A stretch of DNA of 64,000 nucleotides, taken from Corynebacterium marinum DSM 44953. GTDB taxonomy: Bacteria; Actinomycetota; Actinomycetes; Mycobacteriales; Mycobacteriaceae. The position numbers were made by a program, and so were the translations under genes. How positions within the stretch are numbered: the stretch's first letter is position 1; the number at the start of each line of letters is the position of its first letter. The DNA is taken from positions 62,001-126,000 of the forward strand of contig NZ_CP007790.1 of assembly GCF_000835165.1 (NCBI RefSeq), read 5' to 3'. Shown piece by piece: positions 4,423 through 57,544 of this stretch. The notes beneath the pieces are model-generated. The model was not told the origin of the DNA and did no database searches. It saw only the letters and a list, made by a program, of their open reading frames with translations.

Positions 4423-5208
4423 TCACCGCCGGAGTCTGCGCAGCGCCGGGGCCAGGAGGACGACGGCGGCGGCGATGCCGGCCGCCCAGACCAGCACCGG
4501 GGACTCGAACTGTCCCTCCGTGCGGCCGACCGCGATCCAGGCCAGGCCCCAGGCCGTGGCCAGCGCGGGCGCCACCCGGCCGCCGTCCAGCAGGGCGGCG
4601 GCCGCCGCCACGACTGTGGCGACCACGATGCCGGCGACGCCGGCGGGGATCTCCTGCACGGCGTCGACGCCCAGGTCGGCCAGCCACGCCCAGGTGTTGG
4701 CGAACGTGGCCACCAGTACCCAGCCGAAGTACAGGCCGAAGGCGCCGTCCGTGAGCACCTGCTCGACCACCCCTCCCGTCCGCGGGGCCCCCAGGATGTA
4801 CATGATCCGGATGAGCACGGCGAGCAGGGCGAGGATGACCACCACCGAGCCGATGAGCGAGCCGAGCTGCACGGTCCAGATCCAGGCCGCGTTGAGCAGC
4901 AGGGACAGCAGCGCCCAGGGGCGCAGGGAACGCTGCCGGGGCGAGGTGCGGGCTGTGCGCGTCAGCTGCCAGAGGGCGTAGGCGGCCAGGCCGAGGTAGA
5001 TCACGCTCCAGATGCTGAACGCCGGCCCGGCTGGGGCCAGGGGAGTGGCGTCGGCGGACAGGGCTCCGCCGGCCGCCTGGTTGATGGGCGTTCCGCCGAG
5101 GGCGCCGCTGCCGAGGAAGGCGGCGGCGATCGCGAAGACGGCGCCGATGAGGGTGATCACCGGCAGGAGCCAGGTGTTGCCGAGGGTGCGGGTGGGGGTC
5201 TGGGACAT
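4423..5208 (-). CDS. TspO/MBR-like tryptophan-rich membrane protein
   Basis: A 261-residue membrane protein with about seven hydrophobic helices. Segments such as PAFSIWSVIYLGLAAYALWQL, LLLNAAWIW and VLVATFANTWAWL resemble the tryptophan-rich TspO/translocator-family fold, although the protein is longer than classical TspO (about 160 residues). The ATG at 5208 is chosen because AAGGAGG lies 8 nt upstream; the in-frame GTG 9 nt earlier overlaps that ribosome site. It is divergent from the photolyase gene. TspO relatives bind tetrapyrroles or respond to light and oxygen, so pairing with a photolyase may be meaningful, but no function is shown. Confidence 0.7.
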   Translation of the reverse strand: MSQTPTRTLGNTWLLPVITLIGAVFAIAAAFLGSGALGGTPINQAAGGALSADATPLAPAGPAFSIWSVIYLGLAAYALWQLTRTARTSPRQRSLRPWALLSLLLNAAWIWTVQLGSLIGSVVVILALLAVLIRIMYILGAPRTGGVVEQVLTDGAFGLYFGWVLVATFANTWAWLADLGVDAVQEIPAGVAGIVVATVVAAAAALLDGGRVAPALATAWGLAWIAVGRTEGQFESPVLVWAAGIAAAVVLLAPALRRLRR

Positions 5209-5262
5209 AGTGGGCACCTCCTTCCTGCCATGTTAAGGAAATCGGAGCACTAGGTTGGTGGT

Positions 5263-6762
5263 GTGACTCAAGCGAACGGGAAAGCGCCCGCCCTCTTCTG
5301 GTTCCGCGACGACCTGAGGGTCCGCCACAACGAGGCGCTCGCCGCGGCCGCCGACCGCGGGCCGGTCACCGCGGTCTACATCGCCGAGGACCCGGTCGCG
5401 ACCGGGGTCCGGCCCCTGGGCGGGGCGGCCCGGTGGTGGTTGCACCGCAGCCTGGAACGACTCATCGAGGACCTGGCGGGAGGTGGGGTGCCCCTGCTGA
5501 TCCGCAGCGGCGACCCCCGCCGCCTCATCCCGGAACTGGCCGCACGGAACGGGGCGTCCTACGTGTCGTGGAGCCGGCGCTACCACCGCCCGCAGCGCGA
5601 CATCGACGCGGAGGTGAAGGAGAGTCTGCGTTCCGGTGGGGTCGACGCCCACAGCTTCCCGGGCCACCTGCTGGCGGAACCCTGGACAGTGGCTACGGGG
5701 CAGGGTACCCCCTACAAGGTGTACACGCCGTTCTCCCGGGCGCTGCGTTCCGTCGTCGAGGAGGGTCCCGGCCCTGGCCGGCTGCACCTGGAGCAGGCGC
5801 CGGAGGGACTGGCCGGGCCCGGCGCGGACCCGGAGGGGAGCAGGGAGGACCTGGCCGAGCTCGCCCTGCTGCCCTCGCACCCCTCCCGCCGGGAACCGGA
5901 CTGGACCGGCGGCCTGGAGCAGATGTGGACGCCGGGGGAGGAGGGCGCGTGGCGCCGGCTCGGGGGGTTCCTGGCCGCGCTGGAGGGGGGCGTCGGAAAG
6001 CAGGGTTACGCCGAGGGGCGGGATTATCCGGCCCTCGACGTGACCAGCCGGCTCTCCCCGCACCTGCGCTTCGGGGAGATCAGCCCGCTCGCGGTGTGGT
6101 CGGCGGCCGCCGCGCTGGAGGCGGACGGGCGCGACGTCACGGTCTTCCAGAACGAATTGATGTGGCGGGACTTCGCCTGGCACCGCCTCCACCACCGCCC
6201 CGACCTGGCGACGGCTAACGTCCGTGCGGATTTCGACGCCTTCCCCTGGGCCTGGGACCCCGGTGAGCTGGCGGCGGGCACCGCCGGCGGGCGCGACGGA
6301 CGGCGCAGCAACCGCGCCGCTGCCCCCGGGGACTTCCACGCCGACCTCGGCGCCTGGCGCAGCGGCGTCACCGGCATCCCGCTGGTCGACGCCGGCATGC
6401 ACGAGCTGTGGGCCACCGGGCACATGCACAACCGGGTGCGGATGGTCGTCGGTTCGCTGCTGACCAAGAACCTGGGCATCCACTGGCGCCACGGCGAGGA
6501 GTGGTTCTGGGACACGCTCGTCGACGCCGATCCGGCCAGCAACGCCTTCAACTGGCAGTGGGTGGCCGGGTGCGGCGACGACGCCGCGCCCTATTTCCGG
6601 ATCTTCAACCCGGAGACCCAGGCCAAGCGGTTTGATCCGGAGCGCACCTACATCTCGGCCTGGGTGCCGGAATTCGGCGGCCCGGACTACCCGGCCCCCG
6701 TGGTCGACCTCCGGGAATCCCGGGCCATGGCGCTGGCCGCCTACGAGGGGATCCGCCGGTAA
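5263..6762 (+). CDS. phr: Deoxyribodipyrimidine photolyase
   Basis: A 499-residue class I-type cyclobutane pyrimidine dimer photolyase. The N-terminal Rossmann-like antenna domain starts with ALFWFRDDLRVRHNEAL. The C-terminal FAD domain contains FQNELMWRDFAWHRL, VDAGMHELWATGHMHNRVRM and the strongly conserved NWQWVAGCGDDAAPYFRIFNP, whose tryptophans match the electron-transfer and lesion-binding region. Compared with E. coli PhrB, there is an extra Gly/Arg/Ala-rich stretch of about 20 residues near residues 330-355, before the conserved LGAWRSGVTGIPLVDAGM. The start is GTG at 5263. A cryptochrome role is unlikely given the full photolyase motifs. Confidence 0.92.
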   Translation: MTQANGKAPALFWFRDDLRVRHNEALAAAADRGPVTAVYIAEDPVATGVRPLGGAARWWLHRSLERLIEDLAGGGVPLLIRSGDPRRLIPELAARNGASYVSWSRRYHRPQRDIDAEVKESLRSGGVDAHSFPGHLLAEPWTVATGQGTPYKVYTPFSRALRSVVEEGPGPGRLHLEQAPEGLAGPGADPEGSREDLAELALLPSHPSRREPDWTGGLEQMWTPGEEGAWRRLGGFLAALEGGVGKQGYAEGRDYPALDVTSRLSPHLRFGEISPLAVWSAAAALEADGRDVTVFQNELMWRDFAWHRLHHRPDLATANVRADFDAFPWAWDPGELAAGTAGGRDGRRSNRAAAPGDFHADLGAWRSGVTGIPLVDAGMHELWATGHMHNRVRMVVGSLLTKNLGIHWRHGEEWFWDTLVDADPASNAFNWQWVAGCGDDAAPYFRIFNPETQAKRFDPERTYISAWVPEFGGPDYPAPVVDLRESRAMALAAYEGIRR

Positions 6763-6844
6763 TTTCCTCGGCCCGCCGTCACGGTTCGGCCATGAAATCC
6801 CCGGAGGCCGGACGGGGCCGCCCGCACGTATCTATCCTGGACCC

Positions 6845-8392
6845 ATGTCTACCTCACTCCCCGCCACCCTCGACTACACCGCCCGACACGGGAGCCGGAC
6901 TGTGCTGGTCACCGGGGCTTCCGGTTACGTCGGCGGCCGCCTGGTCACTGAGCTGCTGGCCGCCGGGTTCCAGGTCCGCGCCTCCTCCCGCCGGGTGGAG
7001 AGCCTGCGCCGGTTCGACTGGAGCGACAGGGCGGAACTGGTGGAGGCGGACCTCACCGACGCCGACGACATCGCCCGGATCATGGCGGGTGTCGACGTCG
7101 TGTTCTACCTGGTCCATTCCATGGGCGGCCAGGACGAGGACTTCGAGGAGGTGGAGAAGCGGACCGCCACCCTGGTGGCCGACGCCGCGGGGGAGGCGGG
7201 TGTGTCGCAGATCGTCTACCTCTCGGGCCTGCATCCCCGGGGACGGCAGCTGGAGGACCTGTCCAAGCACATGCGCTCCCGGGAGCGGGTGGCCAAGATC
7301 CTCCTCGAGGGCAAGACCCCCACGCTCGTGTACCGGGCGGCCACGCTCATCGGCTCCGGTTCCGCCTCTTTCGAAATGATCCGGCACCTCACCGAACGGC
7401 TGCCGGTGATGGTGGCGCCGCGGTGGATCAAGAACCGCATCGAACCCCTGGCAATCCGGGACGCGCTCTACTACCTCGTCCGGGCGGCGGACCTCGAGGA
7501 ACCCGTCAACCGGGAGTTCGACATCGGCTGCGGGCAGGACTACGAGTTCGCGGACCTGATCAGGATCTACGGCCGGCAGAAGGGGCTGCGCCGGCGCGTT
7601 TTCACCGTCCCGCTGCCGCTGCCCATGGACACCCTCTCCGGCGGCTGGATCGGGCTGGTCACGCCCGTGCCGGCCGGGCTGGCGGTACCCCTGGCGCAGT
7701 CCATGGCGGAGGACGCCGTCACCGAGGAGCACGACATCGCCGAGATCATCCCCGACCCGCCCGGCGGGCTGATCGACTACCCGACGGCGGTGACCCTGGC
7801 GGTCAAGGCGGAACGCGGCCGTGGGGTGCCCACCTCCTGGGACCGGAGCTGGACCAGCGTCGGTGACGCCGCGGACAGTCTGCCCACGGATCCGGAGTGG
7901 ACCGGGGAGTCCGTCTACGAGGACGTCCGCTCCGGGGAGTCGGAACTTCCGGCCGAGAAGGTCTGGGAGGTCGTGGAGGGAATCGGCGGGCCGAACGGCT
8001 GGTACTCCGCCCCTTCGCTGTGGCGGGTGCGCGGCATCATCGACCGCCTCATCGGCGGGCCGGGGCTCGGCGGACGGCGCGATCCGCGCCACCTGGCCGT
8101 GGGCGACAAGGTGGACTGGTGGCGGGTGGTTGAACTCGACCGGCCCCACCGGCTGGTGCTGGCGGCCGAGATGAAGATCGACGGCCGGGCCTGGCTGGTC
8201 ATGGAGGTCAAGGACCGCGGCGAAGGATCCACCTACGTCCAGCGCGCCCTCTACGCCCCGACGGGACTGCTGGGGCGGCTCTACTGGTGGTCCCTGCTGC
8301 CCTTCCACGCCCTCATCTTCCCGGTCATGCTGCGCACCATCCTCAGGACGGCGGAAGAGGAGAACCGGGCGGGCGGGGACGGGCGCGCGTAG
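6845..8392 (+). CDS. SDR-type NAD(P)-binding protein with C-terminal DUF2867 domain
   Basis: A 515-residue protein. The N-terminal half is an atypical short-chain dehydrogenase/NmrA-like domain with nucleotide motif TGASGYVGGRL near residue 23 and VFYLVHSMGG, followed by YLSGLHPRG. The C-terminal 160 residues (VWEVVEGIGGPNGWYS onwards) match the DUF2867 domain commonly fused to such SDRs in actinobacteria. The ATG at 6845 precedes the Rossmann motif and is preferred; the frame is open further upstream without good starts. Substrate unknown. It ends at a bidirectional terminator shared with the convergent lipocalin gene. Confidence 0.85.
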   Translation: MSTSLPATLDYTARHGSRTVLVTGASGYVGGRLVTELLAAGFQVRASSRRVESLRRFDWSDRAELVEADLTDADDIARIMAGVDVVFYLVHSMGGQDEDFEEVEKRTATLVADAAGEAGVSQIVYLSGLHPRGRQLEDLSKHMRSRERVAKILLEGKTPTLVYRAATLIGSGSASFEMIRHLTERLPVMVAPRWIKNRIEPLAIRDALYYLVRAADLEEPVNREFDIGCGQDYEFADLIRIYGRQKGLRRRVFTVPLPLPMDTLSGGWIGLVTPVPAGLAVPLAQSMAEDAVTEEHDIAEIIPDPPGGLIDYPTAVTLAVKAERGRGVPTSWDRSWTSVGDAADSLPTDPEWTGESVYEDVRSGESELPAEKVWEVVEGIGGPNGWYSAPSLWRVRGIIDRLIGGPGLGGRRDPRHLAVGDKVDWWRVVELDRPHRLVLAAEMKIDGRAWLVMEVKDRGEGSTYVQRALYAPTGLLGRLYWWSLLPFHALIFPVMLRTILRTAEEENRAGGDGRA

Positions 8393-8408
8393 AAGGCCCT
8401 GCCGTCGA

Positions 8409-8439
8409 GGGGCCCCGGCGGAATGTCCGCCGGAGCCCC
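8409..8439. terminator. Bidirectional hairpin terminator
   Basis: Arms 8409-8422 and 8426-8439 pair over 13 bp with one mismatch around the 3-nt loop ATG. The hairpin sits between the convergent SDR/DUF2867 and lipocalin genes. There is no strong U-tract, as is usual in high-GC actinobacteria. Confidence 0.7.
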
Positions 8440-8466
8440 GGGGGCTACACGCGGTTTAGCAGCGGA

Positions 8467-9147
8467 TTAGAGCAGGCAGAGCGGGGTGGCGTCCTTGCGG
8501 CCCTCCGCCATCGGGACGGTCAGGAAGGAGCAGTCCCACCAGCCGCGGTCGGCGACGGTGGTCTTGACCAGATTCCACTGTTCGGCGGTCAGGTTCGGGG
8601 TGCGGCTGAGCACGAAACCGGAGCGGCGCTGGGGGTCGCCGACGATGGCCAGGGTGTAGTCCCCGGTGGGGTTGTCCTCGGCCAGGTAGGTGATGCGGTA
8701 GTTGACGGGTCCGTTCTCGTCCTGGAAGGGGATGCCGGGGAAATTCACCCGCAGCGAGGCGTTGGTTTCGGTGTTGCGGATGGTGGCGGTGCCGTCGATG
8801 ACGGAGTCCGAGCTGATCCGGGAGCCGCAGGAGTTGCGCACCGACAGGGCGGTGCCGTCCTCGTTGAGTTCGTAGTCGGCGGTGGTGTCGTTGGTGCACT
8901 GCAGGGTGTACGGCTGGGGGACTGCGGCCACCTGGTACCACCTGCCGTCGTACCTCTCCGGGTCGACGACGAATCCCACTTCCCGCAGTTCCGGGCCGGT
9001 GCTGGAACCGGCGGGCAGGATGTCCGCGGAGATGCTGGAGTTGCGTCCGCCGTTGGTCAGGTCCTGTGCTCCGGCTGCGGCGACGGAGAGCGGGGAGATC
9101 AGTGCGGCGAGCAGGAGGGCGGCGCCGAATTTCTTGGAGGTGCTCAT
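8467..9147 (-). CDS. Secreted bacterial lipocalin
   Basis: A 226-residue exported protein. The N-terminus (KKFGAALLLAALISPLSVAAAGAQD) is a Sec signal peptide with a likely AxA cleavage site before Gln-Asp. The mature part carries the lipocalin GxW motif as DGRWYQVAAVPQPY and ends with the conserved TPNLTAEQWNLVKTTVADRGWW typical of Blc/apolipoprotein D-like lipocalins. Several cysteines (QCTND, NSCGS, DCSF, LCLL) could form disulfides. Lipocalins carry small hydrophobic ligands in a beta-barrel. No lipobox is present, so it is probably secreted or loosely cell-wall associated. It is divergent from the carotenoid operon, and its upstream region has a 27-bp palindrome. Confidence 0.88.
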   Translation of the reverse strand: MSTSKKFGAALLLAALISPLSVAAAGAQDLTNGGRNSSISADILPAGSSTGPELREVGFVVDPERYDGRWYQVAAVPQPYTLQCTNDTTADYELNEDGTALSVRNSCGSRISSDSVIDGTATIRNTETNASLRVNFPGIPFQDENGPVNYRITYLAEDNPTGDYTLAIVGDPQRRSGFVLSRTPNLTAEQWNLVKTTVADRGWWDCSFLTVPMAEGRKDATPLCLL

Positions 9148-9204
9148 GAGCAGAGCCTTTCGCGGAAGTGTACGGGTGCGGTGAGGGGGCCTGGCCCCGT
9201 GGAA

Positions 9205-9231
9205 AAACTAGTTAGCCAGGCTAACTAGTTT
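9205..9231. promoter_or_regulatory. 27-bp perfect palindrome upstream of lipocalin (operator 1)
   Basis: A perfect inverted repeat centred on A9218, with core TTAGCCAGGCTAA flanked by the complementary arms AAACTAG and CTAGTTT. It lies 58-84 nt upstream of the lipocalin ATG, where a repressor of the MarR or TetR type would act. The same core recurs at 9358-9370 on the carotenoid side of the spacer. No regulator gene for it is present in the window. Confidence 0.7.
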
Positions 9232-9528
9232 GCACTCTAGCGGGCAGGGCGCGAGTGGGTGACTGTCTTCGGGAAAATTACCCCCGGGGCAGGGCCCTGG
9301 GGCAGGGCCTCGGCACCCCCGTCGGCGTGGTGGATGGGGCGGCCGGGGCCTGATTAGTTAGCCTGGCTAATTAAATGCCAATATGGTGTATGGCGGCTGT
9401 CCAGATGCCAGTTGAAGGCACAATGGAACCAGCCTTCCCACTTCACCTCCCTCGGGGGGGGGCGGGGATTGATTATTGTGACATCACAGAAAGTGCCACG
9501 CCCATTTTATCCAGTAGGACTTACCTCC
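9232..9528. other. Intergenic region between lipocalin and carotenoid operon
   Basis: No convincing gene is present. The stretch holds the second palindrome (9354-9374), a G9 run near 9454-9462 and a TGTGA-CA-TCACA motif at 9478-9489. That motif has only 2 nt between half-sites and so is not a normal GlxR/CRP box. The operon promoter probably lies downstream of the palindrome, but I cannot place -35/-10 elements with confidence; ATTTTAT at 9504-9510 is a possible -10. Confidence 0.5.
9354..9374. promoter_or_regulatory. Second palindrome, carotenoid-operon side (operator 2)
   Basis: Core TTAGCCTGGCTAA (9358-9370, centre T9364) with further complementary flanking bases and one mismatch pair at 9357/9371. 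It differs from operator 1 only at the central base of the core. The centres are 146 bp apart, so one dimeric regulator could bind both sites and control the lipocalin and the carotenoid operon together. Confidence 0.6.
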
Positions 9529-9564
9529 ATGTCGACGCTTTCCTGCGCGGTCACCGATGAGTGA
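9529..9564 (+). other. Possible 11-residue leader peptide upstream of the carotenoid operon
   Basis: ATG at 9529 opens a short frame MSTLSCAVTDE that stops at 9562-9564, overlapping the first codons of the glycosyltransferase (ATG 9557) in another frame. AGGA about 9 nt upstream could serve this start, whereas the glycosyltransferase ATG has no visible ribosome site. Translational coupling is therefore plausible but unproven. Confidence 0.3.
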
Positions 9565-10351
9565 CGCACCCGTATCAGCTGGCCGCCCGGCGCTCAGCGT
9601 GATCATCCCCTGCCTGAACGACGCGCGCCTGCTCGACCGCTGCCTGCGCAGCCTCGGTGCGCAGTCGGTCGCCCCCGCCGAGGTCATCGTGGTCGACAAC
9701 GGGTCCACCGACGATTCCGCTGATGTCGCGCGCCGTCACGGGGCACGGGTCGTCGACGAGCCGCGCCGCGGCATCACGTGGGCGACGAAGGCCGGATTCG
9801 ACGCCGCGGGAGGCGACGTCCTCATGCGTATCGACGCCGACGTCGAGCTTGACCCCGACTACCTGGAGCGCGTGCGCGACATCTGGCGGAGAGCCGAGGC
9901 ATCACCCGGCCGCCGTGTGGTCGGGGTGACCGGTTCCGCCCGTTTCGAGATCCCGGGCCCAGCAGGCGACATCGCCAGCTCCCTCTACCTGGGCGCCTAT
10001 TTCCGCAGCGTCGGTTCCACGCTGGGGCACTATCCCCTGTTCGGCACCAACTACTCGATCCGCGCCGACTGGTGGGCGGAGGTCCGCGACTCGGTCGACC
10101 TGAGCGACACCTACGTCCATGAAGACATGCAGCTCTCCTTTGCCGTGCGTGCCGACGAGACCGTCTGGTTCCAGAAGGACCTCGTAGTGAGCATGGACGA
10201 CCGTGCCCTGCACGGGATCCGGCAGGTGGCGGTGCGCTTCCACCGGGGTTTCTACACCGTCCTGCGCAACTGGCGGAAGCACCCTCCCCACCGCCGGCTG
10301 GCGCAGCGGGGCCTGCTGGGAACACGGCTGCGGGAGGTGCTGGCACCGTGA
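9557..10351 (+). CDS. Glycosyltransferase family 2, possibly carotenoid glycosyltransferase
   Basis: A 264-residue GT-A fold enzyme. It begins LSVIIPCLNDARLLDRCLRS, has the nucleotide-sugar region VVDNGSTDDSADVARRHGA and the metal-binding DADVELDPDYLE, then HEDMQLSF as the acceptor/catalytic-base region. It is probably cytosolic or membrane-peripheral. Its stop overlaps the crtE GTG by 4 nt (GTGA), so it is the first gene of the carotenoid operon. C. glutamicum glucosylates decaprenoxanthin with a CrtX-type glycosyltransferase. Position suggests the same role here, but family 2 enzymes also build wall glycans, so no gene symbol is given. Confidence 0.75.
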   Translation: MSDAPVSAGRPALSVIIPCLNDARLLDRCLRSLGAQSVAPAEVIVVDNGSTDDSADVARRHGARVVDEPRRGITWATKAGFDAAGGDVLMRIDADVELDPDYLERVRDIWRRAEASPGRRVVGVTGSARFEIPGPAGDIASSLYLGAYFRSVGSTLGHYPLFGTNYSIRADWWAEVRDSVDLSDTYVHEDMQLSFAVRADETVWFQKDLVVSMDDRALHGIRQVAVRFHRGFYTVLRNWRKHPPHRRLAQRGLLGTRLREVLAP

Positions 10352-11313
10352 CCCCGGACCTCGATTCCCGGATCGGCGCTTCGCTGACGCTGCTGGAGGA
10401 CTTCCTCGCGCGCGGCCGCGCCCAGATCCCGCACGACGCCCGGCTGCTGGCGATGGCCTACGACGGTGTGGCCGAATTCTCCCTGGGCGGCAAACACCTG
10501 CGTTCCCGGCTCGTCCATATCTCCGCCGGCGACGTCGCCGGCGAAGGCCTCCAGGCCGCCACGGTGTTCGGGGCGTGCGTGGACCTGCTCCACGGGGCCT
10601 TCCTCATCCACGACGACATCATCGACCGCGACGACCTGCGCCGTGGCCGCCCGACCATCCACGCGGCGGTGCGGGACGAGTACGGGGACGCTCACCTGGG
10701 CACCTCGCTGGCCATCGTCGCCGGAGACCTGGGAATCAACGGCGCCCTCCAGCTGCTGCTCACCTCGGACCTGGCGGACGACGTCGTCCGCCGCGGCATG
10801 CGGTTGCTCTCCTCCGCGGCGCACGAGACGATCACCGGCGAGATCCTCGACATCGCCCACCTGGTGGAGCCGGACCCCGACCTGGAGCAGGTGCGGCTGA
10901 GCAACCACCTCAAGACCAGTGAATACAGCTTCGGCACCCCGCTCAAGCTCGGCGCCCTGGCGGCCGGGCGGGACCCGGCGTCGATGAAGCCGATCGCCCA
11001 CGCGCTGGGCAACGCCTACCAGGCGGCCGACGACATCGCCGGCGCGGTGGGCGACAGCGAGGTCACCGGCAAGCAGACCGCGGGTGACGTGGTCAACCGG
11101 CGTGCGACGTTGGTGACCATGAGGATGGACCCCGAACAGCCGACGGACCCGCAGGCCCTGGCCGGGATCATCCGCGACGTCATCGCGGAGGGTGACTCCC
11201 ACCTGGCGGATGCCCGCCGGCTCATCGACGAGACCGACCTGGCGCCCGGCATCCGGGAGAATCTGCACCACATCACGAACCGAATCGAAGGGATGCTGCG
11301 CACCCATGCCTGA
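10348..11313 (+). CDS. crtE: Geranylgeranyl diphosphate synthase
   Basis: A 321-residue trans-prenyltransferase that extends farnesyl diphosphate to GGPP, the C20 precursor of phytoene. The first aspartate-rich motif is DDIIDRDDLRRGRPTIH (Asp89, Asp90, Asp93); the second is DDIAGAVGD in the C-terminal half; GGKHLRSRL near residue 47 binds isopentenyl diphosphate. The GTG start at 10348 overlaps the glycosyltransferase stop, and the 3' end overlaps crtB by 8 nt. In C. glutamicum an MmpL-type gene sits between crtE and crtB; it is absent here. Confidence 0.93.
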   Translation: MTPDLDSRIGASLTLLEDFLARGRAQIPHDARLLAMAYDGVAEFSLGGKHLRSRLVHISAGDVAGEGLQAATVFGACVDLLHGAFLIHDDIIDRDDLRRGRPTIHAAVRDEYGDAHLGTSLAIVAGDLGINGALQLLLTSDLADDVVRRGMRLLSSAAHETITGEILDIAHLVEPDPDLEQVRLSNHLKTSEYSFGTPLKLGALAAGRDPASMKPIAHALGNAYQAADDIAGAVGDSEVTGKQTAGDVVNRRATLVTMRMDPEQPTDPQALAGIIRDVIAEGDSHLADARRLIDETDLAPGIRENLHHITNRIEGMLRTHA

Positions 11314-12217
11314 GCAGACGCCACCGGACCGGAAGCAGCTGGGGGAGTTCCTGGACCGCTACGACCGCGCGGCGGTCAAGGCCTCCCACGAGGTCATCCT
11401 GTCCTACTCCACGAGTTTCTCCCTGGCCACCCGCCTGCTGGGCAAGCAGGTGCGCACGGACATCCGCAACCTCTACGCCATGGTGCGCATCGCCGACGAA
11501 ATCGTCGACGGGACGGCACGGGCGGCGGGTCTGAGCCCCGAGGAGACCGCCGCGGCACTGGACGACTACGAGAGCGCGATCCTGGCCGCCCCCGCCCGGC
11601 GTTTCCACGTCGACCCGGTCCTGCACGCCTACGCGCTCAGCGCCCGCCGTTGCGGTTTCAACCCCGAGCATGTGACGGCTTTCTTCTCCTCCATGCGTCG
11701 GGACCTGAACCAGACGACCTACGACGAGCAGAGCTTCGAGGACTACGTCTACGGCTCCGCCGAGGTCATCGGCCTGCTGTGCCTGTCGGCCTTCCTGGTG
11801 GACCATCCGGTCACGGAGGAGCAGCGCGGCCGGATGGAGGAGGGCGCGCGTTCCCTGGGCGCCGCCTTCCAGAAGATCAACTTCCTGCGCGACCTGGCGG
11901 AGGATTCCGGGACCCTGGGCCGCGCCTACTTCCCCGGCCTGGACGACCACGAGCTCACCGAGGAGCACAAGGCGCAGTTGATCACCGACATCCGCGGCGA
12001 TCTCGCGCACGCCCGCACCGTCATCCCCCTGCTGCCGTTGTCCGCCCGCACCGGTGTGCTGGCGGCGGCGGAGCTCTTCGGCACGCTGACCGACCAGTTG
12101 GACGAGCTTCCCGCGGCGGAGCTCACGCGCCGACGCGTCAGCGTGCCGCGCCGGACGAAACTCGCGATACTGGCGCGGGCGGTCGCCACCGCCCGGTGCA
12201 TGAACCCCGCGACCTGA
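11306..12217 (+). CDS. crtB: Phytoene synthase
   Basis: A 303-residue squalene/phytoene synthase that condenses two GGPP to phytoene. Motifs are SYSTSFSLATRLL, the first aspartate-rich site DEIVD (in RIADEIVDGTAR) and the second, NFLRDLAEDSGTLGRAYFP, both needed for Mg-diphosphate binding. The ATG at 11306 overlaps the end of crtE by 8 nt, indicating coupling. A 38-nt gap to crtI is the only noticeable spacer inside the operon. Confidence 0.94.
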   Translation: MPEQTPPDRKQLGEFLDRYDRAAVKASHEVILSYSTSFSLATRLLGKQVRTDIRNLYAMVRIADEIVDGTARAAGLSPEETAAALDDYESAILAAPARRFHVDPVLHAYALSARRCGFNPEHVTAFFSSMRRDLNQTTYDEQSFEDYVYGSAEVIGLLCLSAFLVDHPVTEEQRGRMEEGARSLGAAFQKINFLRDLAEDSGTLGRAYFPGLDDHELTEEHKAQLITDIRGDLAHARTVIPLLPLSARTGVLAAAELFGTLTDQLDELPAAELTRRRVSVPRRTKLAILARAVATARCMNPAT

Positions 12218-12255
12218 ACCTGAGAACCCGAACCCTAGAAACGAGAATCAGACAC

Positions 12256-13860
12256 ATGGCAGACAACACCCCCCGCTCCGCCGTCGTGATCGGAGCCGGC
12301 GTCGCCGGATTGGCCACCGCCGCGCTCCTGGCCAAGCAGGGTATGAAGGTCACGGTCGTGGAGCGCACGGACAACGTCGGCGGCCGCGCCGGCGATTTGA
12401 CGCTGGACGGGCACCCCGGTTTCCGCTGGGACACGGGCCCGTCCTGGTACCTCATGCCCGACGCCTTCGACCACTTCTTCCGGCTGCTGGGCACCACCAC
12501 GGAGGAGGAGATCGACCTGGTCGACCTCGCTCCGGCCTACCGGGTGTTCCCCGAGGGGGAGGCCCCGGTGGACGTGCCCAGCGGCGTGGAGGCGGCCGTC
12601 GAATTGTTCGAGTCGATCGAACCCGGCGCGGGGCAGAAGCTGCGCGATTACCTCGACAGCGCCGGCGACACCTACCGGATCGCCATCGAGCGTTTCCTCT
12701 ACACCACCTTCTCCGCGCCGGGCCCGCTGCTGCACCGCGACGTGCGCCAGCGCCTGGGCAAGCTGGCCAAGCTGCTGACCCAGCCCCTGGATTCCTTCGT
12801 CAACGCCCGTTTCCGCGACCACCGGCTGCGCCAGGTGCTCACCTACCCGGCGGTGTTCCTGTCCTCGCGGCCGGAGACCACGCCCTCCATGTACCACCTG
12901 ATGAGCCACACCGACCTGGTGCAGGGCGTGCGATACCCGATCGGCGGCTTCACCTCCGTCATCCAGGCGATCCACCGCCAGGCGGTCAAGCACGGCGCGG
13001 TCGTCGAGCTGGACACCGAGGTCACCGCAATCACCACGCGGAAAGAAGGCCGCAAGGATGTGGCGACCGGCGTGCGCGTCCGCCGCGCCGACGGCCGGGT
13101 CGAGGAGATCGGCGCCGACATCGTCGTCTCCGGCGCGGATCTCCACCACACCGAGACCCGTCTCCTGCCGCCGAAGTTGCGCACCTACCCGGAGAAGTAC
13201 TTCGCCTCCCGCGATCCGGGGCTGGGCACCGTGCTGGTCATGGCGGGTGTGAAGGGCCGGCTCCCGCAGCTGACCCACCACAACCTGCTGTTCAGCCGCG
13301 ACTGGACGGAGGACTTCGAGGCCGTTTTCGACGGGCCGGTCCCCAACCGCCCGCTGGACGCGTCCCGTTCCATCTACGTCTCCATGCCCTCGGCGTCCGA
13401 CCCGGACGTGGCGCCCGAGGACCACGAGAACCTCTTCATCCTCGTGCCCGTCCCCGCGGCCGAGGAGATCGGGCACGGCGACGCCTACCGCGGGCAGGCC
13501 TCCGATCGGGTGGAGGCCATCGCCGACGCCGCCGTCGACCAGATCGCCGAGTGGGCGGGCATCCCGGACCTGGCCGAACGCATCGTCGTGCGCCGGACCC
13601 TGGGCCCGGTCGACTTCGCCGAGCGCTTCCACGCCTGGCGGGGCGGTTCCATCGGCCCCGGCCACTCGCTGCGCCAGTCGGCGTTCCTGCGCGGCCGCAA
13701 CGTCTCCGGGAAGGTCGACGGCCTGTACTACGCGGGCGCCACCACCGTGCCCGGTGTGGGCGTGCCCATGTGCCTGATCTCCGCCGAGAACGTGGTCAAG
13801 CGCCTGCACGGCGACACCAGCCCGGGCCCGCTCCCGGAGTCGGGGGGCGCCCGTGCCTGA
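12256..13860 (+). CDS. crtI: Phytoene desaturase
   Basis: A 534-residue FAD-dependent CrtI-type desaturase converting phytoene to lycopene. The N-terminal dinucleotide fold is VVIGAGVAGLATAALLAKQG followed by VVERTDNVGGRAG. The C-terminal FAD signature is GLYYAGATTVPGVGVPMCLISAENV. GGSIGPGHSLRQSAFLRGRN matches the carotenoid-desaturase C-terminal region. The protein is probably membrane-associated. The start ATG at 12256 is the first before the FAD motif; crtYe begins 8 nt before its stop. Confidence 0.95.
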   Translation: MADNTPRSAVVIGAGVAGLATAALLAKQGMKVTVVERTDNVGGRAGDLTLDGHPGFRWDTGPSWYLMPDAFDHFFRLLGTTTEEEIDLVDLAPAYRVFPEGEAPVDVPSGVEAAVELFESIEPGAGQKLRDYLDSAGDTYRIAIERFLYTTFSAPGPLLHRDVRQRLGKLAKLLTQPLDSFVNARFRDHRLRQVLTYPAVFLSSRPETTPSMYHLMSHTDLVQGVRYPIGGFTSVIQAIHRQAVKHGAVVELDTEVTAITTRKEGRKDVATGVRVRRADGRVEEIGADIVVSGADLHHTETRLLPPKLRTYPEKYFASRDPGLGTVLVMAGVKGRLPQLTHHNLLFSRDWTEDFEAVFDGPVPNRPLDASRSIYVSMPSASDPDVAPEDHENLFILVPVPAAEEIGHGDAYRGQASDRVEAIADAAVDQIAEWAGIPDLAERIVVRRTLGPVDFAERFHAWRGGSIGPGHSLRQSAFLRGRNVSGKVDGLYYAGATTVPGVGVPMCLISAENVVKRLHGDTSPGPLPESGGARA

Positions 13861-14197
13861 GTTCTTTGAGCCCTTCACCTATCTGACGATCCTCCTGGTC
13901 GTCCTGGTCTGCATGGCGTTGTGCGACTGGCGCTGGAAACTGGCCTTCTTCCTCGACGCCCGCCGCGCCGCCGTGCTCAGCGCGGCCGTCGTCGCGGCGT
14001 TCCTCGTCTGGGACGCCCTCGGCATCGCCACCGGATCCTTCTTCCGCGGCGGTTCCTCCTACATGACCGGGGTGGTCCTCGCCCCGGAGATGCCGGTGGA
14101 GGAGCCGATCTTCCTGTTCTTCCTCACCTACCTGACCATCAACCTCACGGCCGGGGCGCGTCTGCTTCTCGACGCCCGCGGAAGGCGGTCCGCATGA
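13853..14197 (+). CDS. crtYe: C50 carotenoid epsilon-cyclase subunit
   Basis: A 114-residue membrane protein with three hydrophobic segments and the lycopene-cyclase-domain motif PEMPVEEPIFLFFLTYLTIN. In corynebacteria CrtYe and CrtYf form a heterodimer that cyclises flavuxanthin to decaprenoxanthin. The GTG start at 13853 overlaps crtI by 8 nt, and the stop overlaps the crtYf ATG by 4 nt. Assignment as Ye follows from gene order and from its being the longer of the two subunits. Confidence 0.9.
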   Translation: MPEFFEPFTYLTILLVVLVCMALCDWRWKLAFFLDARRAAVLSAAVVAAFLVWDALGIATGSFFRGGSSYMTGVVLAPEMPVEEPIFLFFLTYLTINLTAGARLLLDARGRRSA

Positions 14198-14490
14198 CCT
14201 ACCTGCTCATCAGCCTGCCGTTCCTCATCCTCGCCGCGGTGCTGTGGGTCATCCGGCGCGGTTCCGCGCCCCGCCAGGTGGCGGTGACCGCGATCGTCGC
14301 CGCCGTGCTCCTGGTGCTCACCGCCGTCTTCGATAACCTCATGATCTGGGCGGAACTCGTCGGCTACGGCGACGCGCAGCGCCTCGGACTGCAGGTCGGC
14401 CTCGTGCCCGTCGAGGACTTCTTCTACCCGCTGTTCGTCGCACTGATCGTCCCCGCCTTCTGGCCGGGGAGAAAGAAGCAGCATCCATGA
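14194..14490 (+). CDS. crtYf: C50 carotenoid epsilon-cyclase subunit
   Basis: A 98-residue membrane protein with three hydrophobic helices and the second half of the cyclase site, GLVPVEDFFYPLFVALIVPAFW. It partners with CrtYe. Start ATG and stop overlap the flanking genes in ATGA arrangements, a signature of strict translational coupling that would keep the two subunits stoichiometric. Confidence 0.9.
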   Translation: MTYLLISLPFLILAAVLWVIRRGSAPRQVAVTAIVAAVLLVLTAVFDNLMIWAELVGYGDAQRLGLQVGLVPVEDFFYPLFVALIVPAFWPGRKKQHP

Positions 14491-15350
14491 CAACCATCCT
14501 CGGGGTGCTCTCCGCTTCCCGGCCCATCAGCTGGGTCAACACCGCCTTCCCCTTCGGCCTGGCCTACCTGCTGGCCGGTGGGGGACTGGACTGGCTGTTC
14601 TGGGTTGGCGTGCTCTTCTTCCTCATCCCCTACAACATCGCCATGTACGGGATCAACGACGTCTTCGACTACGAATCCGACATCCGCAACCCCCGCAAGG
14701 GCGGCGTCGAGGGTGCCGTCCTGCCGAAGTCGATGCACGCACCCCTGCTGTGGGCCTCGGCGCTGACGACCGTCCCCTTCCTGATCGCGCTGTACGCGGC
14801 CGGGACCTGGACCTCGGCGCTGTGGCTGACCGTCGCCATGGCGGCGGTGATCGCCTACTCCGCGCCTCCCATGCGGTTCAAGGAACGCCCCGTCCTGGAT
14901 TCGGTGACCTCGTCGGCGCACTTCGTCACCCCGGCGATCGTCGGCGCCACCATCACCGGCGGCGAGGCGGGCACCCACTTCTGGTTCGCGGCCGGCGCCT
15001 TCTTCCTGTGGGGGATGGCCAGCCACGCGCTCGGCGCCGTGCAGGACGTGAAGGCGGACCGCGAGGGCGGGCTGAGTTCCATCGCCACCGCCTTCGGCGC
15101 CCGGCTGACCACCCGCCTGGCCGCCGGCGCCTACCTGCTGGCGGCGCTGCTGGTCTTCGCCCTGCCCGCCCCGGGGTGGATCGTGGGTATCGCGGGCCTG
15201 GGCTACGTGGCCAACACGCTGCGCTTCTGGAACATCACCGACGCCACCTGCGAGGACGTCAACCGCGCCTGGCGGGTGTTCCTCTGGCTGAACTACCTCG
15301 TCGGCGCGATCGTCACGATCACGCTGGCGGCGGTGTTCATCGGGATCTAG
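14487..15350 (+). CDS. crtEb: Lycopene elongase (UbiA-type prenyltransferase)
   Basis: A 287-residue UbiA-family membrane prenyltransferase that adds two C5 units to lycopene, giving the C50 product flavuxanthin. The catalytic Asp-rich motif is NDVFDYESD (residues about 57-65) and a second site is DVKADREGG. Around eight hydrophobic helices are present. Last gene of the operon: its TAG shares the CTAG at 15347-15350 with the convergent peptidase stop, so there is no room for a separate terminator. Confidence 0.93.
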   Translation: MTTILGVLSASRPISWVNTAFPFGLAYLLAGGGLDWLFWVGVLFFLIPYNIAMYGINDVFDYESDIRNPRKGGVEGAVLPKSMHAPLLWASALTTVPFLIALYAAGTWTSALWLTVAMAAVIAYSAPPMRFKERPVLDSVTSSAHFVTPAIVGATITGGEAGTHFWFAAGAFFLWGMASHALGAVQDVKADREGGLSSIATAFGARLTTRLAAGAYLLAALLVFALPAPGWIVGIAGLGYVANTLRFWNITDATCEDVNRAWRVFLWLNYLVGAIVTITLAAVFIGI

Positions 15351-16678
15351 ACCCCGCAGAAGCGGCGGACCAGCGAGCGGTAGGCCTGCACCGTGAGGTC
15401 GAGGTCCGCCAGCTCCAGGTGCTCGTCGTGGGTGTGCAGCTGCGAGAATACGTCGCCCAGGGTGCGCTCCCGGGCGTGCAGGGCGAAGCCGTAGCCGTTG
15501 CCGCCGAGACGGCGGCCGAACCGCAGGTCCGAGCCGCCGGCGGCGATGGTGGGCACGACGGGGACGCCGGGGAAGAACTCGTCGAAGGTGTCCACCAGGG
15601 CGTCGTAGAGCGGGCCGGAGGTGGGGGAGACCGTGGCCGACTCGGAGATGAGACGTTCGATGCGGACCTGGTCGGCGAGGTCGCCGAGTGCTCCGGTGAG
15701 AAGCTCGTCCACATCGTCCTGGGTGGTGCCCGGCAGCGGGCGGATGTCCAGGTCGAGCGTCGCCGCCGAAGGCAGCACGTTGATGGCGGTGCCGGAACGC
15801 AGGATGGTCTGCGAGATGGTCAGCCGCGACAGGGCGTGGGCGTAGCGCTTGAGGTCCTCGCCGAAGTGCTCGAAGGCGGCCGGGTCGGTGCCCTCCAGGA
15901 GTGCGGTCTCGACCTCGGGCGAGAAGCGGAACGCGCGGACGAAGCCCTGCCAGAGGTGGTCGTCGGAGACGGGGATGTCGATCTGCGAGATACGGCGCGC
16001 AACCTCGGCGATCTTCACCACCGCCGAATCGCGGCCGTAGGGGTTGGAGCCGTGGCCCGCGTCGCCGGTGACGTGCAGGCGGCGTTGCGCGGCCCCCTTC
16101 TCGCCGACGACGAGCACCAGGGCGTCGGAACCGTCGGAGATGGGCAGGTGGGATCCGCCGGTCTCGGAGACGGTGTTGCGCCAGGAGAAGGCCTCGGGGT
16201 GGTGCTCGGAGAGCCACTTGGCCCCCAGCCCGCCGCGGGCCTCCTCGTCGGCGACGCCCACGAAGGTCAGGGTGCCGGTGGGGCGGCCGGTGAGGGCGGC
16301 GTCGCGAAGCACGGCGGCCATCGTCGCGGTGATAAACAGCATGTCCATCGCGCCGCGGCCGTAGATGCGGCCGTCGCGGATCTCCGCGCTGAAGGGGTCG
16401 ACGGTCCAGTGGTGGCGGTCGACGGGCACGACGTCGGTGTGGCCGAGGAACGTCAGCGGCTCGGCGTAGGGGTCCGTGCCGGGCAGGGTGACCACGATGC
16501 TCACCCGCCCGGGCGCGGACTCGTAGCGGTTGATCTCCAGGCCGGGGACGCCGTCGAAGAAGAGCTCGAGCGTGTCCGCGTTGTGGACCTCCTGGCCGGA
16601 GGACGGCGTGAGGTCGTTGACGCAGGCGTTGCGGATGAGCGCACGGAGGAGGGCGAGGGTGTCGTCGTAGAGCGGCAT
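15347..16678 (-). CDS. M20/M25/M40 family metallopeptidase
   Basis: A 443-residue zinc hydrolase of the ArgE/DapE/carboxypeptidase G2 fold. Metal and catalytic motifs are GHTDVVPVD, GRGAMDMLF, the general-base pair DEEARGG and the C-terminal THDEHL. The lid domain lies near residues 180-300. It cleaves an amide or peptide bond of a small substrate that cannot be specified. The ATG at 16678 begins 14 nt after the metI stop, so it is probably the fourth gene of the methionine-uptake operon. It may therefore release methionine from peptides or N-acyl-methionine, an inference from context. Confidence 0.87.
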   Translation of the reverse strand: MPLYDDTLALLRALIRNACVNDLTPSSGQEVHNADTLELFFDGVPGLEINRYESAPGRVSIVVTLPGTDPYAEPLTFLGHTDVVPVDRHHWTVDPFSAEIRDGRIYGRGAMDMLFITATMAAVLRDAALTGRPTGTLTFVGVADEEARGGLGAKWLSEHHPEAFSWRNTVSETGGSHLPISDGSDALVLVVGEKGAAQRRLHVTGDAGHGSNPYGRDSAVVKIAEVARRISQIDIPVSDDHLWQGFVRAFRFSPEVETALLEGTDPAAFEHFGEDLKRYAHALSRLTISQTILRSGTAINVLPSAATLDLDIRPLPGTTQDDVDELLTGALGDLADQVRIERLISESATVSPTSGPLYDALVDTFDEFFPGVPVVPTIAAGGSDLRFGRRLGGNGYGFALHARERTLGDVFSQLHTHDEHLELADLDLTVQAYRSLVRRFCGV

Positions 16679-57037: not shown

Positions 57038-57544
57038 TCAGGCCCGGAAGCCGAGGGGGAAGCGGACCTCGCCGGTGGGGACGGCGTCGTCGGCGAGGGG
57101 GAGAGCCATGAAGTACTGCGGGTCATACTCCGGGTAGACCAGGTCCGGCACGTTGGCCAGGCCGAAACGTCCGTAGTAGTTCGGATCGCCGAGAGCGACG
57201 GCGCCGCCGGCACCGAGTTCACGCAGCTCCGCCAGGGCGCGCTCCATGAGCAGGGACCCGACTCCCTCGCCCTGGTGCTCCGGGGCCACGCTGATGGGGC
57301 CCACGAAGTACCAGTTCGGCGTTCCGTCGCTGATCTCCACGGGGGCGGCCCCGACGTGGCCGGCCACGTCGGGGCCCTTCACCACGATGAAGGAGAGGGT
57401 GAGGGCGTCGGCGTCGCGGAGCGACTCCACAATCTGCGCCTCACGCTGCTTCGAGTAGGGCTTGCCGACGAATGCGCGGGAGGTCAGCTCGCGGATCGCG
57501 GGGATGTCGGCCTCGGCCTCGCGGCGAATTGTCAGGGAATACAT
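57038..57544 (-). CDS. GNAT-family N-acetyltransferase (YhbS-like)
   Basis: A 168-residue acetyltransferase. The acetyl-CoA signature is ISVAPEHQGEGVGSLLMERAL, preceded by the GHVGAAPVEI strand and followed by LGDPNYYGRFGL, a feature of the YhbS-type subgroup. It should transfer an acetyl group to an amine of unknown identity. ATG at 57544. Confidence 0.87.
   Translation of the reverse strand: MYSLTIRREAEADIPAIRELTSRAFVGKPYSKQREAQIVESLRDADALTLSFIVVKGPDVAGHVGAAPVEISDGTPNWYFVGPISVAPEHQGEGVGSLLMERALAELRELGAGGAVALGDPNYYGRFGLANVPDLVYPEYDPQYFMALPLADDAVPTGEVRFPLGFRA

Follow-up and report, generated by a model that had tools for sequence, protein, structure and literature searches.

Two palindromes between a secreted lipocalin gene and a C50 carotenoid operon of Corynebacterium marinum are candidate operators of an unlinked CrtR paralogue

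In the window, i.e., the stretch of 64,000 nucleotides of the Corynebacterium marinum genome analysed here, a gene for a secreted lipocalin (lpc) and a C50 carotenoid (crt) operon are divergently oriented, and the spacer between them holds two palindromes that share an operator core. Judged from the sequence, co-regulation of lpc and crt in this species is very probable; the likely repressor, proposed with somewhat less assurance, is CrtR2, a paralogue of the MarR-type repressor CrtR encoded elsewhere in the genome. Bare co-regulation of a lipocalin with crt genes is known in outline, and the novelty lies instead in the swap of operator and regulator, in a second candidate site in C. glutamicum and in the grouping of lipocalin, fasciclin and MmpL genes.

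Organization of the locus

The features of the locus are listed in Table 1. As the initial annotation had described, lpc, which starts at 9147 on the minus strand, is divergent from a C50 carotenoid operon that starts at 9557 on the plus strand, and one of two near-identical palindromes lies towards each. Pfam matches, open reading frames and homologue searches give the order GT2-crtE-crtB-crtI-crtYe-crtYf-crtEb, which makes up a C50 cluster; the tight same-strand spacing suggests transcription as one operon. By its position GT2 may be crtX-like. No Pfam match was obtained for crtYe, and the names crtYe and crtYf follow the usual gene order of C50 operons.

On the far side of lpc, photolyase and epimerase-like genes recur in 17 (phr) and 18 (epi) of the 19 other crt-linked lpc loci. 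A gene of the TspO/MBR family (4423-5217; weak Pfam match) adjoins the photolyase gene. Homologues of it occur in the lpc/crt neighbourhoods of genomes G031, G104, G121 and G164, and near the crt operon in G077.

Table 1. Features of the lpc-crt locus, in positions of the window.
Feature	Description	Position	Strand	Basis
phr	DNA photolyase	5263..6762	+	Pfam DNA_photolyase, FAD_binding_7
epi	NAD-binding epimerase-like + DUF2867	6848..8392 (start chosen)	+	Pfam on 6632-8392
lpc	secreted Blc/ApoD-type lipocalin, 226 aa	8467..9147	-	Pfam, alignment, model, Foldseek
operator A (lpc side)	AAACTAGTTAGCCAGGCTAACTAGTTT, perfect 27-bp palindrome	9205..9231	.	putative operator
operator B (crt side)	TTAGTTAGCCTGGCTAATTAA, core 9358-9370	9354..9374	.	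putative operator
GT2	family-2 glycosyltransferase, crt operon gene 1	9557..10351	+	Pfam Glycos_transf_2
crtE	polyprenyl (GGPP-type) synthase	10348..11313	+	Pfam polyprenyl_synt, E 1.2e-41
crtB	phytoene synthase	11306..12217	+	homologue searches and gene order; start read from sequence
crtI	phytoene desaturase	12235..13860 (start approximate)	+	Pfam Amino_oxidase
crtYe	C50 cyclase subunit	13853..14197	+	ORF, order; conserved in crt clusters
crtYf	second cyclase subunit	14194..14490 (start approximate)	+	ORF, operon order
crtEb	lycopene elongase (UbiA family)	14487..15350	+	Pfam UbiA, E 3.5e-29

The lipocalin

The lpc product matches Pfam Lipocalin_2 with an E-value of 5.3e-37 (127.5 bits, against a cut-off of 24), and the match spans profile positions 1-144 of 146, i.e., the whole domain. 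The N-terminus reads as signal-peptide-like without a lipobox cysteine, in keeping with the secreted lipocalin that had been annotated. An AlphaFold model of 225 residues, the first Met being omitted, predicts a beta-barrel fold (pLDDT 78, pTM 0.73). The best Foldseek matches of this model are temperature-induced lipocalin (TIL, 8wb2; E 7.9e-11), Blc (1qwd and 3mbt; TM-score on the target 0.85 for 3mbt) and DiB proteins; the model is nearest to plant TIL, Blc and ApoD, with crustacyanins lower in the list (1gka among the matches). A sequence search of the PDB likewise gives TIL as best hit (E 1.8e-12), followed by Blc (E 2.7e-6). The lpc product thus has its family and fold in common with E. 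coli Blc, ApoD and plant TIL, but it differs from these in being secreted without a lipobox and in forming part of a likely carotenoid regulon. Four cysteines, which are kept in 23 of 23 aligned sequences of its own family, may be a further difference.

The palindromes of the spacer

Palindrome A consists of 13-bp arms around one central base, 57 bp from the start of lpc. The arms of palindrome B, 10 bp each, have one mismatch, whereas its 13-bp core is perfect; it lies 182 bp before GT2, and its right arm contains a bare TTAA (9371-9374). That the two share an operator core is evident from the letters. For arms of 13 bases or more and a gap of 0-2, the base composition predicts 0.015 chance palindromes in 64 kb, and two are observed, one of them A. 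The second of these is a perfect 30-bp GC-rich palindrome, GGCCCCGACGTGGCCGGCCACGTCGGGGCC, at 57347-57376, which is unrelated to A. A promoter scan returned one weak match, on the minus strand and away from both palindromes.

The 13-bp core TTAGCCNGGCTAA occurs in exact form at two places in the genome of 2,729,219 bases, both in the lpc/crt spacer, while its reversed control occurs at none. If up to two mismatches are allowed, the core has 13 matches and its reversed control 30; only exact matches therefore carry weight. Over the 242 genomes of the genus the 13-mer is not enriched: 14 genomes contain 17 exact sites, and the reversed control has 21. It is thus the location of the sites, and not their number, that makes the case. 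Promoters of crt/lpc or fasciclin genes account for six of the 17 (two each in the window's genome, G000, and in G104, one each in G013 and G204). Ten of the other eleven were inspected; none is symmetric at the next flanking base, and the same holds for the exact site of the G104 fasciclin gene. The initial annotation had regarded wide occurrence of the core without crt or lipocalin genes as fatal to its proposal; such wide occurrence is not seen, the sites in question being these eleven chance-like ones in 242 genomes, below the reversed control.

Both palindromes recur, with changes, in G013 and G031, the spacer of G031 being otherwise much diverged. The nine-base motif TAGCCTRGC is exact on the crt side in G000, G013, G031, G104 and G204. 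G104 and G204 keep the 13-mer intact on the crt side and have a weak site towards lpc (TAGCCAGAC).

CrtR2 as candidate regulator

At an E-value of 1e-5 the homologue search finds no crtR beside the crt genes in the window's genome. The sole CrtR homologue is CrtR2 (match C1:856179-856697, 49% identical), the open reading frame of which (C1:856080-856730) lies 785 kb from crt and is divergent from an MmpL/RND transporter gene. Because this only homologue is unlinked, beside mmpL at C1:856 kb, the system of the window is a variant and not the standard CrtR arrangement. A figure legend also places a CrtR paralogue divergent from mmpL in Paenarthrobacter nicotinovorans (Henke 2020, PMC7432914). 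The mmpL-side CrtR2 is likewise the only CrtR homologue in G031, G104 and G204. CrtR and CrtR2 are both present in G093 and G077; G099 has CrtR2, and neither lpc nor crtEb. The canonical crtR beside lpc and the fasciclin gene in G093 and G077 (loci L048 and L052) has an in-frame TGA, whereas the match to the mmpL-side paralogue has none; these two genomes may represent an intermediate of a regulator swap.

A tree was built from 22 of the 25 matches at 49% identity or more, three with in-frame stops being omitted; in it, CrtR and CrtR2 fall on opposite sides of one branch with a support of 100/100; the long branch of G099 was flagged by the tool. Fixed or near-fixed differences between the two groups include S103T, P104S, N112D, K116R and V124P (G046 numbering), at positions that presumably belong to the recognition helix and wing of the MarR fold. 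Operator and regulator have apparently been swapped together in the window's lineage, as far as these sequences indicate.

The core of the palindromes, TAGCCTGGC, is also present in the promoter of crtR2 in G000, so that crt, lpc and crtR2 have an operator core in common. Among the 12 copies of TAGCCTRGC in this genome (reversed control 38), two lie in the lpc/crt spacer and one in the 107-bp spacer between crtR2 and mmpL. The 8 copies in G031 include crt and the crtR2 spacer; the 18 in G104 include crt, the crtR2 spacer and two before the fasciclin gene; one of the 21 in G099 is in the crtR2 spacer. G093 and G077 have 4 and 3 copies, none of them at crtR2. In all six genomes scanned the reversed motif is commoner (30 to 62 places), and therefore it is position rather than number on which the case rests. 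In G204 the motif is found within 200 bp before crtR2 as well. Altogether it is exact before crtR2 in five of the seven CrtR2 genomes and one mismatch off in G093 and G077; because one-mismatch matches to TAGCCWRGC turn up in 18% of shuffled sequences, only the exact matches count. Where crt and crtR2 carry the exact motif, lpc has TAGCCAAGC in G031 and a one-mismatch site in G104. The copy at the crtR2 promoter of G000, CTAGCCTGGCGTAG, has no full second half: like the nine other copies of that genome (0/9), it lacks the full TAGCCNGGCTA, and this half-site is no better in symmetry than those nine. All motif statistics are uncorrected for phylogeny, and the motifs were partly picked by eye.

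The main point against CrtR2 as sole regulator comes from G013. Window positions 5196-15501, which comprise photolyase, epimerase, lpc and the crt operon, are found in this genome in different surroundings, with an identity of 98.2% (L041, G013:C1:2095000-2114500, 5182-15486). The neighbours of the copy are a TrwC relaxase at one end and, at the opposite end, a cadmium-resistance transporter and an IS240-type transposase; G013 has a second lpc and crt cluster besides. Since the collinearity of G031 with the window extends beyond both ends of the photolyase-epimerase-lpc-crt unit, G013 is probably the recipient of a transfer. Both palindromes are kept in the copy, A with one core mismatch, and no CrtR homologue is found in G013 at E 1e-5; therefore the unit is either unregulated there or its sites are read by another protein. 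Such a protein, for example another MarR or a TetR protein, could also own the palindromes in the window, and TTAGC-type palindromes are common for MarR proteins. This is nevertheless unlikely, given that five of the seven CrtR2 genomes have the identical 9-bp core upstream of crtR2. In addition, no regulator was seen among the open reading frames of at least 90 aa within ~9 kb on the left and ~10 kb on the right, which were checked by inspection, with 12 proteins of the region run through Pfam. It is barely conceivable that the palindromes are chance or terminators rather than operators, for which the unenriched genus-wide 13-mer might speak, given that both exact copies of the genome fall in the lpc/crt spacer, that A and B survive with changes in the diverged spacer of G031, that A has a one-base loop with no T-run behind it, and that neither is among the two terminator-like matches of a scan.

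Comparison with the CrtR regulon of C. glutamicum

In C. glutamicum the crt operon is controlled by the MarR repressor CrtR (Henke 2017, PMC5401885). The microarray of the crtR mutant in that paper shows changes in eight genes, namely seven of the crt operon, including the RND gene cg0722, and cg0726, which rises 8-10-fold and the product of which is termed a 'putative secreted lipoprotein'; the paper suggests that CrtR perhaps has a single site. CrtR was found to be light-dependent, and an effect of GGPP could not be reproduced by the authors (Sumi 2019, PMC6739363). As Cg0726 is also listed in an MprAB transcriptome table (PMC12113857), regulators besides CrtR may act on it.

In G065, the lpc homologue directly adjoins crtR, and its first 26 residues are identical to the signal peptide of Cg0726 as printed in PMC12810402; G065 is therefore C. 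glutamicum or a very close relative. From this crtR-adjacent homologue and the identical signal peptide, Cg0726 can be assigned to the lipocalin family, as the C. glutamicum counterpart of the window's lipocalin. The 10-mer GAGTTAATAT, taken from the CrtR target, contains the essential TTAA at the published place, and in the 3.3 Mb of G065 it has exactly two copies (reversed control 0): one in the crtR/crtE spacer (639568), the other in the lpc/Cg0726 promoter (640904). The 19-mer given in PMC7432914 has AATT where G065 has TTAA. With its identical 10-mer, the Cg0726 promoter would thus hold a second, candidate site of the CrtR type.

The longer motif AGTTAATAT was found with at most one mismatch within 250 bp before lpc at 14 of 16 CrtR-linked loci (5 exact), i.e., loci with CrtR in the same fetched stretch as lpc, as compared with 1 of 49 other lpc loci, none of the 4 CrtR2 genomes and not the one transferred copy; the shuffled control gives 7%, and the counts refer to related species, not to independent events. 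At L048, L052 and L057 the site may serve a divergent fasciclin gene that shares the stretch. Before the lpc of the window no such site was found, the best match in 250 bp, which include both palindromes, having 3 mismatches. A scan for the half-sites TTARCC/GGYTAA outside the CrtR2 genomes and the G013 copy gave matches with one mismatch or none in G038 and G214 only, in both of them before lpc.

The C. glutamicum regulon and the window therefore have a crt operon with an adjacent lipocalin gene and photolyase and epimerase neighbours in common, under a MarR repressor in C. glutamicum. They differ in the operator, which is of the AGTTAATAT/TTAA type in the CrtR regulon and TTAGCCWGGCTAA in the window. 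Unlike in C. glutamicum, no crtR lies between lpc and crt in the window, where the likely regulator is the unlinked mmpL-side CrtR2, and two separate candidate operators face the two genes. A lipocalin co-regulated with a carotenoid operon had initially been put forward as new. The co-regulation is supported by the comparison and by the published crtR transcriptome; the newness holds by half. Adjacency (with lpc as a 'putative lipocalin' in a Figure 1 legend) and the derepression of Cg0726 are already in print, while the CrtR-like site of Cg0726, the differing operator and the unlinked CrtR paralogue are absent from the passages of the literature consulted.

Distribution and linkage across the genus

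The lpc gene is present in 66 of the 242 genomes, a few of the matches being fragments, and crtEb in 67 (E 1e-40). Both occur together in 48: crtEb is found in 48 of the 66 lpc genomes versus 19 of the 176 others (odds ratio 22, uncorrected for relatedness), which leaves 18 lpc genomes without crtEb at this threshold. As a marker of carotenoid producers crtB was rejected as uninformative, being present in 226 of 242 genomes; for the same reason, a strong crtB match in 16 of these 18 genomes carries no information.

A search of other genomes for lipocalin-crt adjacency, which had been proposed as a check, gave crtB, crtI or crtEb near lpc in 17 of 69 other loci, in addition to the window. The fetched stretches cover mostly ~9.5 kb on each side, some being ended by contig edges. 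At the remaining 52 loci none of the three genes is nearby, crtE being seen at two, L045 and L094, near contig ends. Most lpc loci are thus unlinked to crt and have mixed neighbours. Where lpc and crt are unlinked, no convincing shared motif was obtained in 8 pairs from 7 genomes (G217, the own copy of G013, G212, G130 twice, G003, G069 and G077); one pair scored at 1% of shuffles, with a GC-rich motif. In G121, G164 and G076 (L047, L060, L065) the lipocalin gene lies upstream of the crt genes in the same direction, not divergently. A search of genome contigs with the single lipocalin protein found no relative, and with the lipocalin alignment it found 35 loci.

Fasciclin and MmpL neighbours

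In G104, an exact copy of the 13-bp core, its flanks not symmetric, stands 175 bp before the gene for a secreted fasciclin-domain (FAS1) protein; 62 bp beyond this copy there is a second TAGCCTGGC. FAS1 genes lie within ~3 kb of lpc in 7 of the 69 fetched loci (L048, L049, L052, L057, L060, L072 and L078), with an MmpL gene between FAS1 and lpc in the genome of L072. Among 27 genomes searched, 16 have FAS1 homologues; the FAS1 promoters of G000 and G031 carry degenerate sites only, with 4 and 3 mismatches. In Dietzia, an MmpL gene directly precedes lpc on the same strand in 9 of 11 loci, the other two being cut by contig ends, and searches of the fetched flanks for crt genes were negative.

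The families of crustacyanin (lipocalin) and AstaP (fasciclin), which became carotenoproteins in animals and algae, both recur beside crt/crtR genes here. Crustacyanin and AstaP bind carotenoid; the lpc and FAS1 products are candidates at most. Because a cyanobacterial FAS1 homologue is reported not to bind carotenoid (PMC10147662), membership of these families proves nothing about pigment binding.

Proposed mechanism and role of the lipocalin

The arrangement as a whole is probably explained by both palindromes being operators of one MarR-type repressor, most likely CrtR2. From the presumed positions of the promoters, one palindrome would be placed to shut the lipocalin promoter and the other the divergent crt operon. 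CrtR is a GGPP- and light-responsive repressor. If CrtR2 behaves analogously, rising isoprenoid pyrophosphate or light would make it leave both sites, upon which the pigment enzymes and the secreted lipocalin would appear together. The lipocalin may then carry lipids beyond the cytoplasmic membrane as part of a light-protection response: it could ferry the C50 carotenoid, or a lipid related to it, to the outer mycolate layer, or it could clear away oxidised lipids. At the sequence level the proposal is supported by the sites, their uniqueness and conservation, the negative search for a CrtR homologue beside crt, the 9-bp core at crtR2 and the parallel in C. glutamicum. The rise of Cg0726 in the crtR mutant and the co-occurrence of lpc with crtEb also speak for it.

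As to the ligand, lipid scavenging under photo-oxidative stress is more likely than carotenoid binding. There is about an even chance that the lpc product scavenges or carries oxidised or membrane lipids in the manner of ApoD, TIL and Blc, without binding carotenoid, and that it is switched on together with the pigment since both protect against light and peroxides. This agrees with its closest structures, with the conserved photolyase neighbour in crt-linked loci, with the 18 of 66 lipocalin genomes that lack crtEb, and with the 52 of 69 loci that have no crtB, crtI or crtEb nearby. The strong co-occurrence of lpc with the C50 gene crtEb argues against it, and the gene order of G121 and G164, where lpc comes first and the crt genes follow in the same direction, would better fit a pigment-specific role.

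It is possible but doubtful that the lipocalin is a carotenoid carrier, receiving the C50 pigment (free or as glucoside) from the membrane or from an MmpL exporter and delivering it to the mycolate layer. Such a carrier would account for the derepression of the crt genes together with cg0722 (RND/MmpL type) and Cg0726 when crtR is mutated, and for the MmpL gene directly before lpc in Dietzia; carotenoid-binding lipocalins do exist, and crustacyanin 1gka is among the structural matches. On the other hand, the model is closest to TIL, Blc and ApoD, the lipocalin genomes without a crtEb match and the Dietzia flanks in which no crt genes were found count against a pigment carrier, and a C50 chain is longer than the typical lipocalin pocket. 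Moreover, inactivation of the RND gene left carotenoid production unchanged (unpublished data of the authors of PMC6739363). In the titles and opening lines of abstracts on crustacyanin and carotenoid-binding lipocalins no bacterial carotenoid-binding lipocalin appears, and among the Corynebacterium literature on lipocalins with carotenoid or decaprenoxanthin, judged likewise by title and abstract start, PMC5401885 alone is relevant.

More speculative still, and improbable as a whole, is a dedicated extracytoplasmic pigment-handling system, in which an MmpL exporter and a secreted lipocalin and fasciclin under CrtR or CrtR2 would be co-expressed with the C50 enzymes, both proteins would bind carotenoid and place it in the mycolate outer membrane, and the regulon would have been re-wired from CrtR to CrtR2 by matched changes in operator and recognition helix. 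If the lipocalin or the fasciclin did bind pigment, they would count as extracytoplasmic carotenoproteins of bacteria and would offer a first handle on the route of C50 carotenoids to the mycolate envelope. Apart from the ligand, Cg0726, a little-discussed gene of the crtR transcriptome, becomes a named and conserved member of the regulon with an identifiable candidate operator, and the locus offers a natural example of what seems to be a concerted change of operator and recognition helix during the replacement of one regulator by another.

The leader of the crt operon

Two further elements lie downstream of palindrome B. A near-palindrome, TGTGACATCACA, at 9477-9488 of the crt leader is common to G013 and absent from G031, and may be a site for a second regulator. 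An open reading frame of 11 codons (MSTLSCAVTDE, 9529-9564) overlaps the start of GT2 by 8 nt; it is also found in G013 and, with two residues changed, in G031, and possibly encodes a leader peptide or serves translational coupling.
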